Below are positions 729-13,592 of a DNA stretch of 36,027 bases, in pieces. A program made the position numbers and the translations under genes. Source of the DNA: a virus; the IMG/VR virus record IMGVR_UViG_3300025466_000099, positions 1 through 36,027 of that record; one strand, written 5' to 3'. The notes beneath the pieces are model-generated. The model saw only the letters and a program-made list of their open reading frames with translations. It ran no database searches and had not been told where the DNA came from. The number at the start of each line of letters is the position of its first letter. Positions within the stretch are counted from its first letter, which is position 1.

Positions 729-764
729 TACTTTGATTCTATTGCAGCAATAGGCAATGTCTAT
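728..764. promoter_or_regulatory. OxyR-type operator upstream of ahpC
   Basis: The plus strand reads ATAC-N7-CTAT-N7-ATAG-N7-CTAT. The published OxyR consensus has four tetranucleotides ATAG/CTAT/ATAG/CTAT spaced by seven bases. Here 15 of the 16 core positions match with exact spacing. The extra T and A positions inside the outer spacers of the consensus are only partly kept. The site lies between the tmRNA terminator and ahpC and would be read by a host OxyR, since no regulator gene is in the window. Confidence 0.72.
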
Positions 765-766
765 TG

Positions 767-800
767 AAAAATAAAAATAATAGGAGCCGAAGCTCCTATT
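767..800 (-). terminator. intrinsic terminator of the tmRNA transcript
   Basis: A perfect 9-bp stem AATAGGAGC/GCTCCTATT (779-800) closed by a TTCG tetraloop on the minus strand, followed by a T-rich run (TTTTTATTTTT). It directly follows the coding half of the permuted tmRNA. Confidence 0.92.
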
Positions 801-1087
801 ACTAACCTTTCTGTTACCAAGCGGTTAACTCTGGAAAACTACACCGTTATTAGGCGGCTAGTGCCATGTGGTAATTGCTATCGTTTGCATTTACTTTTTT
901 TTGTGCTGATTACGTCAGTCACCTTTCGGACGCATTGAGTGTATTACGCAGCCTGTCGAAACCGATATGCCCCATAGTTGGTGGAGCATCGGGGAATCGA
1001 ACCCCGGTCCAAACTGATTTTAGTTCAATGTTTACGTCGTTTATGAGTTGCGTCCAAAACGCTTTTAGCTAAGAGTTTACTACCATT
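779..1087 (-). ncRNA. ssrA: circularly permuted (two-piece) tmRNA, tag ANDSNYHMALAA
   Basis: Read on the minus strand, the acceptor half comes first. Its T arm CGGGG-TTCGATT-CCCCG is followed by the 3' acceptor strand ATGCTCC (983-989), discriminator A and encoded CCA (979-981). After five bases the coding half begins with GGGGCAT (967-973), which pairs with ATGCTCC and includes the G3-U wobble read by alanyl-tRNA synthetase, then GGTTTCGAC of the D-loop region. A second cross-piece helix pairs CAGGCTG (949-955) with CAGTTTG (1010-1016). The tag frame at 853-888 encodes ANDSNYHMALAA, then two stop codons (847-852); the resume codon is GCA after AGTAAAT. A late promoter lies just upstream and an intrinsic terminator just downstream. 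The RNA rescues stalled ribosomes with SmpB, which is not in the window. The loop between CCA and GGGG would be removed, giving two RNA pieces. The 5' end is estimated from the promoter. Confidence 0.95.
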
Positions 1088-1092
1088 AAGCG

Positions 1093-1100
1093 TATTTATA
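1093..1100 (-). promoter_or_regulatory. T4-type late promoter for the tmRNA
   Basis: TATAAATA on the minus strand, an exact match to the T4 late consensus, placed directly before the acceptor half of the tmRNA. The motif lies in the loop of a perfect 7-bp inverted repeat (ATTAAGC 1085-1091, GCTTAAT 1104-1110). Confidence 0.65.
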
Positions 1101-1135
1101 ACAGCTTAATGATCAAAAAGCAATGGATATTACCG

Positions 1136-1237
1136 TTATTTTTTAAAACAATGGATTGATATCATAGTGAGTAAAACTCCTATGGTGCCTACTGAACACA
1201 CAATAATGCCGGTGGTGATTGATAGATATAGTGCCAT
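1136..1237 (-). CDS. 33-residue predicted membrane peptide
   Basis: A short reading frame that begins MALYLSITTGIIVCSVGTIG and ends in a short basic tail (HCFKK). Residues 3-29 form one strongly hydrophobic segment, long enough to span a membrane. The start is supported by a strong ribosome-binding site, GGAGGT, seven bases before the ATG, and by an exact late promoter TATAAATA 32 bases upstream. I do not recognise a family. Size and layout fit a small phage membrane effector or a holin-like peptide, but nothing in the sequence shows which. The tmRNA promoter begins 36 bases after its stop codon. Confidence 0.62.
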   Translation of the reverse strand: MALYLSITTGIIVCSVGTIGVLLTMISIHCFKK

Positions 1238-8697: not shown

Positions 8698-9132
8698 TTA
8701 CCTTGGAAAAATGACTTGAACCATATTTTCCAGATAAAGCGTTTGATCAATGTCTTGGGTATTAACTACCTCGCCTGGCGTGTAGTTTAAAATATCTATG
8801 CCATTTACAAAGACTAAATTATATAACTTTGTTTTAGAATAATCAACCATCGTTCTAACCTCAATTTGGTGATTTTTGAATGGTTCGCTGAGCTTGAGAG
8901 TGTATCCAATCATCAAAGCCAGAGTGAAGTCATCATAGCGATTTTCCACTATTATATCCCAAGGAGTGGGCCAATGTTTGAAATCGTAAGGATCCACTTT
9001 GTGATGATGAGCAATCATGGGAGCGTTGGCCCAAAATTTTGCTGTGGACTCCAAAGGATTTTCCCTATGGGTCAATGCTTTCCTAAAATCAGACCATGCC
9101 GATAATCTTTCGTCCTGAGATAGTTCAAACAT
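8698..9132 (-). CDS. conserved T4-like phage protein, unknown function
   Basis: 144 residues. The sequence has recognisable blocks ERLSAWSDFRKALTH and WPTPWDIIVENRYDDFTLAL, which I recall from hypothetical proteins of T4-like cyanophages beside tail-fibre genes. There is no signal peptide or membrane segment. Its ATG shares one base with the stop of the tail-spike gene (TAATG), so translation is coupled and the two are likely made together. A chaperone or accessory role for the spike is possible but is inferred only from position. Confidence 0.82.
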   Translation of the reverse strand: MFELSQDERLSAWSDFRKALTHRENPLESTAKFWANAPMIAHHHKVDPYDFKHWPTPWDIIVENRYDDFTLALMIGYTLKLSEPFKNHQIEVRTMVDYSKTKLYNLVFVNGIDILNYTPGEVVNTQDIDQTLYLENMVQVIFPR

Positions 9133-10742
9133 TATTGTAACTGGCTATATCTATAAGTAACTGTTCCTGCATAGGTTGGATTGATATATCCCAACACTAT
9201 GCTATTGGTAATGGTATTTAATGATGCCGTAAATATGGTACCGCCGTCGGTGGATCCAACATATGAGTAATTGTCGGTAATGGTGGCTGTGGATCCGTTG
9301 GTCAACAATGCAGTATTCACGAACAATTTGCCTTTTCTGGCAATATTGGCCGATGATATTAGTAGATTGTAGTCAATTGATGTGGCAGCTTGATATCCAT
9401 TGAAAGGCAAGTTGGCTATTGACACAGTTTGTGTTGATATGGTCAAGTTTGCAGAATAGACCGATCCATTGTTTATGTAAGTGGATCCACCTATAAACCA
9501 ACTGGCCGTTGATACGATAGAGGTAGTGGTTGAATTGATATTTGTAAATCTAGTTGAAAAGTCTCCCGACGACACATTGCCATTGGATAAAAAATTAATG
9601 ATCGGAGTTACAGGATTGAGATCACCGGTGAGATTGTTTCCGACCTCTCTGAATACATTGTAGGCGCTGACATGGTTGGTGAAATTGTTGCCGCTGTTGT
9701 TTCCAACATAGAATCCTTCACGATTGATATTTAAAAATTTGTTATTTTCTAATCGTGTACTGACAGGTCCAACGAAATTACCCAAGGCAATATTTTCTCC
9801 GTGAACCACTCCTCTATTGCAATTTGTAAATCGTGAATTTATTATAACTGTATCACGTATATCGTAGTTGGATTGTATTCCATAATACAATCCATTGAAT
9901 GTGCAGTTCTGAATAAGAAGATCTTGTGTGGGCAATGATCCTTGTCCTCTTATGTCTATTCCGGTGTAATTGATATTAGACGAGGTCGATCCGTTTACTC
10001 CAACAAATCCGCAATCAATAATGTAAGAACACTGCGCACAATCAGGACGCAGCAAGGGCTGTATAGAAGTAGATGTGGTCACTATGCTGGCATCATACTT
10101 AAAAGTAATACCAACAATGTTGATACCGTTAGGTGGAGTGGAAAAAGCAATACTGGGCCAGGTATTAGTTCCATCTGTAAATTGCAGTATTGGGCCGTTA
10201 GCTGCTATTAAATTCAAAACAGTCTTGCCTTGACCATCGCCAATTAGTGTAACGTAAGGAGGCACAAATATGGTGCCTCCTATGTAATAATTACCTGCAG
10301 GAATACGCAGTGCAGCTCTCGCGGCGTTGTTGCCGTTGAGTACAGCATCTGCATAAAATGCATTAATGGCTGCCTGTATCTGAAGGTGGGTAGGAGTTCC
10401 ATCATTGGTAGCTCCAAAATCAAATACTGTTACAAAATCATCCAGTTTGCTTTGAAAAGTTCTAGCAACTGTGCTTGTGGTAGGATATCCGGGATAGTAT
10501 CCTGGAATATGTCCTTGATATTGATAGGTGGAAGATGTAACTGAAACTGTAAAATTGAGATCATTTTGAGTTAAAATTCGTGTGTTATTACTGTTAGCTG
10601 CACCATCCGCTGTGCTTTTGCCGATGTATAGATGTTCGGTATCCTCTGCCCACCCAAATTCGCCAGGAGATAATTGCGGTATTCCTGTGACGTTTTCTTG
10701 TCCTCGACGTACCTGAATTTTTGCAATTTCAATTATGGCCAC
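9132..10742 (-). CDS. tail spike/fibre with beta-helix (pectate-lyase-like) domain
   Basis: 536 residues. The start is a GTG at 10742 with AGGAGA before it. Residues 1-55 (IEIAKIQVRRGQE, LSPGEFGWAEDTEHLYIGK) match the N-terminal module common to phage fibres and Mtd-like proteins, which attaches to the virion. Around residues 95-330 a right-handed beta-helix is indicated by VTVFDFGATNDGTPT, LRIPAGNYYIGGTIFVPP and a series of short strand repeats with Asn ladders (NCTFNGLYYG, NSRFTNCNRG, NNKFLNINREGF). The C-terminal 200 residues are Ser/Thr/Asn-rich beta structure. It probably binds or degrades host surface polysaccharide. A late promoter lies 23 bases upstream and the 144-residue gene follows in coupling. 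Confidence 0.88.
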   Translation of the reverse strand: MAIIEIAKIQVRRGQENVTGIPQLSPGEFGWAEDTEHLYIGKSTADGAANSNNTRILTQNDLNFTVSVTSSTYQYQGHIPGYYPGYPTTSTVARTFQSKLDDFVTVFDFGATNDGTPTHLQIQAAINAFYADAVLNGNNAARAALRIPAGNYYIGGTIFVPPYVTLIGDGQGKTVLNLIAANGPILQFTDGTNTWPSIAFSTPPNGINIVGITFKYDASIVTTSTSIQPLLRPDCAQCSYIIDCGFVGVNGSTSSNINYTGIDIRGQGSLPTQDLLIQNCTFNGLYYGIQSNYDIRDTVIINSRFTNCNRGVVHGENIALGNFVGPVSTRLENNKFLNINREGFYVGNNSGNNFTNHVSAYNVFREVGNNLTGDLNPVTPIINFLSNGNVSSGDFSTRFTNINSTTTSIVSTASWFIGGSTYINNGSVYSANLTISTQTVSIANLPFNGYQAATSIDYNLLISSANIARKGKLFVNTALLTNGSTATITDNYSYVGSTDGGTIFTASLNTITNSIVLGYINPTYAGTVTYRYSQLQ

Positions 10743-12087: not shown

Positions 12088-13592
12088 TTGGCCAGCTTGC
12101 TGATTATTGAATGTGCTTCGGATAATTTGCGAGCGCGGCGTTGTTGTCGTGATTCACGCATTTCACGCCCGGCTGTTTCTGCACCGCCTGCTGCTGCATC
12201 GCTGGCTGCGAATTCATCGCTGTCCATTTCGTCAGCATCGTTCATGGTATCTTCTTCGTCGGACATTCCCATGTTTTGCGGAATTTCGTCGGTTAGCCCA
12301 CCGGCCAATGCGGATACTGCACGGGTTATTATTTCTCGGCTCTGTGTCAAAGCATCCAATGATTGCTGCAAGGCCGGTTGTATGGTTTGTTTAAACTGAT
12401 CTGATTGTGCCTGTCCAAAATTAGCTCGAATACTGTCTGCCAGTTCAATCATGCTTTTAGTTTGATATTGTCCCACTCTCTGCATCCAAACTGTAAAATC
12501 GTTTACCATGTCAGTGCCGGCAGTGATGTCTTTGGCCTTGCCTTCTTCATCCTCTCTGATAAATCTTTTAATACCTTCGAGAATGATCGCATAATTTTCT
12601 TTTATGGTATTTTCAGGTAAGCGCCCTGTTGGTCCGCCCGTGCCGTATTTTTTCTTCAGGTGCTCAGGATATGGCTTGCCACTGGCAGTGGTTCCGGTAC
12701 GCATGGCTTTGTATTCGTCGCCGTGGGCGGCTACTCCGTTCTTGGGTCTACGTCCTAATGTATCATTGGATGGTTTGGATTGACCACCTTTCTTGGTGTC
12801 ATAGGAATAAAATTCCGATACCAAATCAGCCGAAGGAATACCCTTCTTTGATTTGATTCTTTTTAACTTGGTTGATTTTGTTTTGGCTTGTTTCATAGTC
12901 ATTGATCCCATTTTTGATTCGTCGGTTTTCTTCTCTGGAAGACCTTTCAGTTTAGTGGCAGCAAAATCGTGTGCAGCTTTCTTTGTCATGCCTTTGGCAG
13001 CTTTAGCAACAGCGGCACTGGGCGCTTTCATTTTGCCTTTTTTCACGGCATTTACCATGCCCATGAAACGCTGCTGTTTTTTGCTCACTGCTTTTTCTGA
13101 CACAATTCCTTCGGATGTCTCTTGACGAATTGGCACTATTTTATTTTTTTCTTGAGCGTATCTGGCCGCTTTTTTGGCCTTGCTCATATAACGGTCAGCA
13201 TCCTTTGAATGCTGTTCTACCTCATCGCCGTGAACAGATGATAACCCTTTTACAGTGGATTGAGCTGATTGCAGTTTCCGTTTTTTGGACACTCGGTCAG
13301 CTAGATCGCTACTAATTTCATTGACCCGAGCTGATTCGCCCAACATTTCTTTTATGCGTGTGTTTAATAAGTTTAGCATAAACTTGTCTTGCTGATATCT
13401 ATTATCGGCCAATAAATCATTAAATCCCGCGGTGCTTTCTGTTTGACTCAATTTGGTTCGCAAGTGATTGCGTGCGTCCTCTAATTCTTCTCGAGTGTAT
13501 TTGGTGAAATTGATTTTTTTCCCAAACTTTTTGAACATGGTTTCGTTCAGAACCGCGCTGGAAATGGGTATAGTGAATGTGTTTGTTTTCAT
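12084..13592 (-). CDS. probable virion protein with a DUF3008-like module
   Basis: 502 residues, very Lys/Ala-rich in the middle and acidic near the end. Residues about 168-226 (SKKQQRFMGMVNAVKKGKMK through DFAATKLKGLPEKK) match the DUF3008 pattern, normally a free-standing protein of about 60 residues. A Gly/Lys-rich linker with SYDTKKGGQSKPSNDTLG and HLKKKYGTGGPTGRLPE follows. Residues 360-440 form helices, and an acidic run (SDEEDTMNDADEMDSDEFAA) precedes a basic tail (RESRQQRRARKL). A late promoter lies 28 bases upstream and TAGGA precedes the ATG, so it is expressed late, probably as a structural or scaffold-like protein. Function otherwise unknown. Confidence 0.75.
   Translation of the reverse strand: MKTNTFTIPISSAVLNETMFKKFGKKINFTKYTREELEDARNHLRTKLSQTESTAGFNDLLADNRYQQDKFMLNLLNTRIKEMLGESARVNEISSDLADRVSKKRKLQSAQSTVKGLSSVHGDEVEQHSKDADRYMSKAKKAARYAQEKNKIVPIRQETSEGIVSEKAVSKKQQRFMGMVNAVKKGKMKAPSAAVAKAAKGMTKKAAHDFAATKLKGLPEKKTDESKMGSMTMKQAKTKSTKLKRIKSKKGIPSADLVSEFYSYDTKKGGQSKPSNDTLGRRPKNGVAAHGDEYKAMRTGTTASGKPYPEHLKKKYGTGGPTGRLPENTIKENYAIILEGIKRFIREDEEGKAKDITAGTDMVNDFTVWMQRVGQYQTKSMIELADSIRANFGQAQSDQFKQTIQPALQQSLDALTQSREIITRAVSALAGGLTDEIPQNMGMSDEEDTMNDADEMDSDEFAASDAAAGGAETAGREMRESRQQRRARKLSEAHSIISKLAK

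Follow-up and report, generated by a model that had tools for sequence, protein, structure and literature searches.

Permuted, two-piece tmRNAs of phages are already documented in the literature: such an RNA was described for the phage Melnitz and 53 two-piece tmRNAs were predicted among 18,146 phage genomes (PMC9004378), 79 phage sequences are held in the tmRNA database (PMC11915505), and huge phages have been found to carry both tmRNA and SmpB (PMC7162821). The stretch of DNA analysed here, in the following termed the window, comprises the 36,027 bases of an IMG/VR virus record and contains an intact, circularly permuted tmRNA gene on its minus strand (1089-776). The original prediction regarded such a gene in a T4-like phage as unusual; this part is not upheld, as the type had been published (PMC9004378) and is common in IMG/VR, where a pattern scan of viral contigs retrieved at least 119 stretches with the permuted-tmRNA core, most of them with readable tags. 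The gene is a new member of an already known kind: phage permuted tmRNA. The new part, worth testing, is the conserved locus in which it is linked to clpX. According to the reading that we favor with a probability of about 0.6, the gene encodes a functional two-piece tmRNA of the betaproteobacterial type within a conserved locus (nrdA-nrdB-grx...tmRNA...clpX), the tags of which would feed ClpXP, including the phage ClpX. Gene structure, covarying helices, synteny and clpX linkage are directly established.

Structure and conservation of the permuted tmRNA gene

In the Rfam gathering search, both permuted tmRNA families scored above their curated cut-offs: RF04321 (tmRNA_permuted) matched positions 850-1039 of the minus strand (120.3 bits, cut-off 47, E 3.6e-23), and RF01850 (beta_tmRNA), the top model of its clan, matched positions 777-1095 of the same strand (115.7 bits, cut-off 84, E 9.4e-35). 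ARAGORN concurred in calling a permuted tmRNA, the tag of which, ANDSNYHMALAA, is closed by two stops; the permuted tmRNA that had been proposed, together with the covariance-model search as its check, is confirmed by these results. The core pattern (T-arm, CTCCACCA, spacer, GG, GGTTTCGAC) occurred once in the window (0 expected from shuffles), and the RNA fold had a z value of −4.0 that was equalled by none of 100 shuffles.

The acceptor half precedes the coding half in this gene. Along the minus strand, a replacement 5' segment of the acceptor piece (1039-1007; Rfam, alignment and covariation) holds the 5' strand of the P2 helix (GACG, 1038-1035, pairing with CGTC, 932-929) and is followed by the T-stem-loop, the acceptor 3' strand ATGCTCC, the discriminator A and an encoded CCA at 981-979 (segment 1006-979; Rfam, pattern and covariation). 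The intervening segment of five nucleotides (ACTAT, 978-974; pattern scan and sequence) would be removed in processing. The coding piece starts with G973, its 5' end being formed by the acceptor 5' strand GGGGCAT, with G-U as the third pair, and the GGTTTCGAC motif (973-955; Rfam, pattern and alignment). The tag reading frame (888-847; ARAGORN and sequence) consists of the resume codon GCA, ANDSNYHMALAA and two TAA stops, and the tag comprises 12 residues with HM before the ALAA end; an intrinsic terminator with a 12-bp stem, a UUCG loop and a T tail was read at 803-776. The predicted tag frame, G-U pair, encoded CCA, UUCG-capped terminator and piece ends at 979 and 973 are all present in the sequence.

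The window tmRNA was aligned with nine other phage permuted tmRNAs (n = 10). The acceptor paired in 98.6% of the cells, the T-stem in 100% and the P2 helix in 57.5%, the latter partly via alignment shifts; the acceptor-stem U-G pair was invariant in all ten phages. Cells with compensatory double changes numbered 28 compared with 9.0 in shuffled alignments (0 of 500 shuffles as high). Since the acceptor, T-stem and P2 helices covary among the ten phages, the tmRNA gene is under selection.

The tag ending NYHMALAA was present in no cellular tmRNA among 84,980 genomes, Leu being searched as CTN only; its single genome_contigs match (L415) is not a tmRNA. Two matches of the pattern scan (L003, L054) were rejected as permuted tmRNAs, each consisting of a tRNA with a standard tmRNA downstream of it. 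In several phages (L072, L257, L008, L011, L216 and others) the tags are stretched between an ANDxxY start and an LAA end, e.g. ANDDVYTEEYALAA and ANDESYTEDFEEEFALAA, and some phage tags end in RLAA or AMAA; compared with the tags commonly seen in bacteria, those of phages seem to vary more widely. A permuted tmRNA (76.6 bits), unannotated in GenBank, was also located in Xanthomonas phage X1 (OQ427096.1, 121009-121337), approximately 3 kb upstream of the ribonucleotide reductase genes.

Promoter region and proposed origin of the acceptor piece

A T4-type late promoter had been proposed to drive the gene. An exact TATAAATA is located on the minus strand at 1100-1093, just upstream of the RNA start (motif scan and sequence); the site is late-promoter-like, is preceded by TGT (extended -10) and has no good -35 element. 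By itself this motif proves nothing, because its count in the window is near chance (4 versus 2.7-3.0 expected); the overlapping record G001 contains 7 copies (4.8 expected), and the 228.8-kb relative G020, with 6 versus 15, is below expectation. Directly upstream of gp23, TATAAATA was absent in the seven records read; 18 copies were counted in 50 kb of T4 for comparison. An unbiased count upstream of open reading frames revealed an enrichment of TAAATAT (18 versus 2.5 expected) and TAAATAC (13 versus 1.8) in G020, and ATAAATA was likewise enriched upstream of open reading frames in the window and G001 (12 versus 3.1). These words would agree with a variant form of the T4 late motif, and the tmRNA site fits them; variant late motifs are known from T4 relatives (PMC2988020).

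The same site doubles as a sigma70 extended -10 (TGTTATAAA), and the homologous position is occupied by TTGACA-17-TATAAT or a near match in many syntenic relatives (L239, L253, L266, L300, L302, L307 and others). The latter arrangement is typical of early or constitutive transcription; several phages of alpha type combine TTGACA with TATAAATA. Late transcription of the tmRNA is therefore possible in the window phage, as suggested by the exact motif and its fit to the enriched ATAAATA-like words, but given the unenriched exact word, the extended -10 and the TTGACA-17-TATAAT of the relatives, the proposed promoter type is only partly supported, and the family pattern leans towards transcription by host sigma factor. 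A second TATAAATA (1276-1269) precedes an open reading frame for a hydrophobic peptide of 33 residues (MALYLSITTGIIVCSVGTIGVLLTMISIHCFKK) with an SD-like GGAGGT; this unit (1276-1139, minus strand) is situated directly upstream of the tmRNA.

Comparison with relatives identified positions 1089-1052 (minus strand; TTAATGGTAG...TTTTGGAC) as a remnant of the 5' portion of an earlier permuted-tmRNA acceptor piece. It matches the 5' part of the acceptor piece of L310, L411 and L026, where it is continuous with the T-arm; in the window, the leftover piece is followed by 12 bases and then by another acceptor-piece segment of different sequence, which runs into the T-arm. The same two-piece arrangement is present in L022, the T-arm, acceptor and spacer of which are identical to those of the window; there, an HNH-NUMOD3 homing endonuclease gene (731-1192, plus strand) lies inside the permuted tmRNA gene, with the replacement acceptor segment beyond it. 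The P2 helix was exchanged on both strands (GGTAG:CTACC in L026, L310 and L411 versus GACG:CGTC in the window). These arrangements suggest that part of the tmRNA gene was at one time replaced by an endonuclease element, the later loss of which left a scar; as judged from this homing-type scar, the tmRNA gene itself would be a target of mobile elements.

Phage context and linkage to clpX

Two further IMG/VR records, G001 (37,170 bases) and G002 (10,292 bases), matched the window with 100% identity over 9,061 and 5,547 bases, respectively; both reach beyond its left edge, and the three assemblies agree at the tmRNA locus. As the locus is held at full identity by two other records, it is not chimeric, and the concern that phage and host DNA were joined at this point is removed; together with the synteny in relatives, the identity led us to reject a chimera or host remnant. 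In these relatives the genes for a phrog_298 exonuclease, NrdA, NrdB, glutaredoxin, the permuted tmRNA, (AhpC and an AhpD-like protein), ClpX and an exoribonuclease are arranged in this order on one strand; the synteny is kept in more than ten diverged relatives (protein identities mostly 40-90%), the tags of which are unlike that of the window. In the window, glutaredoxin (3645-3391) and nrdB (4720-3626) are encoded upstream on the minus strand as conserved tmRNA neighbors of the lineage, and an AhpC/TSA peroxiredoxin (621-76, minus strand; 76-81% identity in relatives) is the next gene downstream, with the AhpD-like gene beyond it (annotation and synteny). The latter, a carboxymuconolactone decarboxylase gene (8998-9504 in G001), adjoins the phage ahpC, and the pair is kept in relatives. 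A RimK-like ATP-grasp gene (ribosomal protein S6 modification) lies between tmRNA and clpX in G001 (12185-13066) and also in G023.

The closest GenBank NrdB is that of Xanthomonas phage X1 (64%). The window nrdA is split in two open reading frames (8649-4730, minus strand): the upstream one ends with ...RSC-CVTPDTWVEIIDEGDSEDK, the downstream one opens with an intein-like domain ending ...THN-S, and between them a frame of 369 residues has a start that appeared GIY-YIG-like by eye. This broken nrdA resembles a split intein whose N part is short, accompanied by a free-standing endonuclease. The large relatives measure 229-353 kb, and the Gp23-type capsid genes in G015, G025, G028 and others bear out the assignment to T4-like phages; no Gp23-type capsid match was obtained in the window contigs, which are fragments, or in the 228.8-kb G020. 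The window very probably represents one piece of the genome of a large T4-like freshwater phage.

The ClpX of G001, encoded 6.3-7.5 kb beyond the left end of the window, is a full-length protein of 413 residues with zf-C4_ClpX and AAA_2 domains and aligned to a solved ClpX with an E value of 1.4e-125; its GYVG, RKH, TRDV and VGF motifs correspond to the pore-1, RKH, pore-2 and ClpP-binding loops. In E. coli ClpX, the RKH loop is required for degradation of ssrA-tagged substrates (PMC7112951). A 129-residue protein, the gene of which overlaps clpX, was rejected as an SspB-like adaptor: its structure model (pLDDT 84) gave nucleoside deoxyribosyltransferase-like proteins as best folds, and no match had E <= 0.001. 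Of 52 records, 27 had a ClpP above the cut-off, among them those of the large relatives G012, G015, G020, G021, G025 and G028, and the protein was canonical in all four sequences read; none was found in the two contigs of the window phage, both fragments. SmpB was found in none of the 52 records, control genomes scoring positive; of the complete phage trans-translation/ClpXP pathway, ClpX is thus present, and no phage SmpB was detected.

When the search was directed outward from ClpX, a permuted tmRNA exceeded the cut-off in 28 of 49 ClpX-bearing records (29 of 50 minus phage X1, since X1 is without ClpX), compared with 2 of 36 control records (T4 relatives and NAMPT-bearing phages; ClpX in 0 of 36). 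The Fisher p value of this association is 3e-7, or 2.8e-4 if the clade of the window is left out, and these p values overstate independence because the records are related. No standard tmRNA was above the cut-off in 20 of the 21 ClpX records lacking a permuted one. The X1 DNA ligase as control query gave zero matches. Four relatives chosen by NrdB alone hold both tmRNA and ClpX. In the reverse direction, a full ClpX was above the cut-off in just 2 of 46 permuted-tmRNA phage records (many of them fragments), one being G001; in consequence, ClpX characterizes certain lineages rather than tmRNA-bearing phages in general.

These figures bear on the strongest alternative, that the tmRNA serves ribosome rescue alone and that clpX is nearby because the gene order was inherited, the two genes having no functional connection. 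It would accommodate the many permuted-tmRNA records without ClpX, among them that of the complete phage X1, as well as the clustering of the tmRNA label on the ClpX tree (6 changes versus 15.6 if shuffled), and other phage roles are possible for ClpX. However, the association is seen again in several distinct ClpX clades besides that of the window (13 of 13 members tmRNA-positive, the window phage counted), and tmRNA and clpX are 7-20 kb apart in 12 of 13 genomes measured (61 kb in G056), including 7-14 kb in four large genomes of the window's ClpX clade; the crude combined p value, treating records as independent, is 0.0015. We consider rescue alone a possible explanation, but clearly the less probable one.

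Proposed function and comparison with described systems

In the favored reading of a tmRNA that feeds ClpXP, a single precursor would be transcribed from the promoter at approximately 1100, and the 5-nt spacer would be cut out by host RNase P and 3' processing. The RNA would be used by host AlaRS, EF-Tu and SmpB for the rescue of stalled ribosomes, and the stalled chains would be given the tag (A)ANDSNYHMALAA, so that peptides tagged by the phage tmRNA would bear AANDSNYHMALAA. Tagged chains would be passed on to ClpXP, the host enzyme being supplemented or replaced by the ClpX of the phage and, in the larger relatives, also by a phage ClpP; the likely benefit would be the recycling of ribosomes and amino acids as mRNAs break down during infection. 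The linked phage ClpX outside the window lends strength to the earlier suggestion that the phage uses its own tag to direct proteolysis; the functional coupling of tmRNA and ClpX is one that we infer. As ClpX is the enzyme by which proteins with such tags are recognized and unfolded, this linkage suggests that the phage may supply not only the tag but also a component of the machinery for destroying tagged proteins.

Alternatively, the phage tmRNA could be a decoy, tying up SmpB or ribosomes and inhibiting trans-translation of the host. Such an inhibitory role was reported for the tag-less tmRNA of phage DS6A, expression of which in E. coli inhibits the endogenous tmRNA (PMC11915505), and the absence of a phage SmpB would agree with it; nevertheless, the tag frame of the window is intact, from the resume codon to the ALAA end and the two stops, and related phages retain diverse tags of the same design, so that this role is improbable. 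A functionless captured host tmRNA fragment or assembly chimera, to which the beta-type sequence and the recombination indicated by the upstream leftover piece might point, hardly merits consideration given three identical assemblies, syntenic relatives with different tags, helices preserved by compensatory changes and a tag known from none of the cellular tmRNAs searched.

The tmRNA-ClpX locus makes the purpose of phage tmRNAs concretely testable, i.e. by asking whether the phage ClpX prefers the phage tag. If the favored reading is true, phages carry their own route of protein degradation, which would provide natural tags for controlled proteolysis. A further-reaching and rather tentative proposal is that large T4-like phages possess a tag-and-destroy system in which the tmRNA tag is matched to their own ClpX (with ClpP), only SmpB being host-derived; the phage would then control ribosome rescue and the destruction of tagged proteins independently of host ClpXP regulation.

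A literature search, covering neither most subscription journals nor any bioRxiv preprints, retrieved no paper that links a phage tmRNA with a phage ClpX. The Methylophilales phage Melnitz and the pelagimyophages (PMC9004378) share with the window the permuted tmRNA, the T4-like myophage type and the lack of a detected integrase, and for the Melnitz tmRNA maintenance of the hijacked machinery or tagging of host proteins was likewise proposed. In contrast to the Melnitz tmRNA, which has alphaproteobacterial affinity, lies downstream of an early promoter and is tied to a glutamine riboswitch (PMC9004378), the window tmRNA is of beta type and clpX-linked, and no riboswitch was found in the window. 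With the betaproteobacterial permuted tmRNA (RF01850) it has gene order, acceptor, T-arm, P2 and terminator in common, but is distinguished by its 5-nt spacer, its 12-residue tag with HM before ALAA and its location in a phage. An annotated tmRNA and clpX are also present in the Sinorhizobium jumbo phage AP-J-162, which has several Clp proteins; there, however, neither a linkage of the two nor a joint system was reported, a role in replication was proposed for ClpX, and the host is alphaproteobacterial (PMC11242549). The T4-like phage pf16 likewise contains part of the ssrA/ClpXP delivery pathway, but in the form of the adaptor SspB without a tmRNA (PMC5587285), whereas the window phage combines tmRNA and ClpX.
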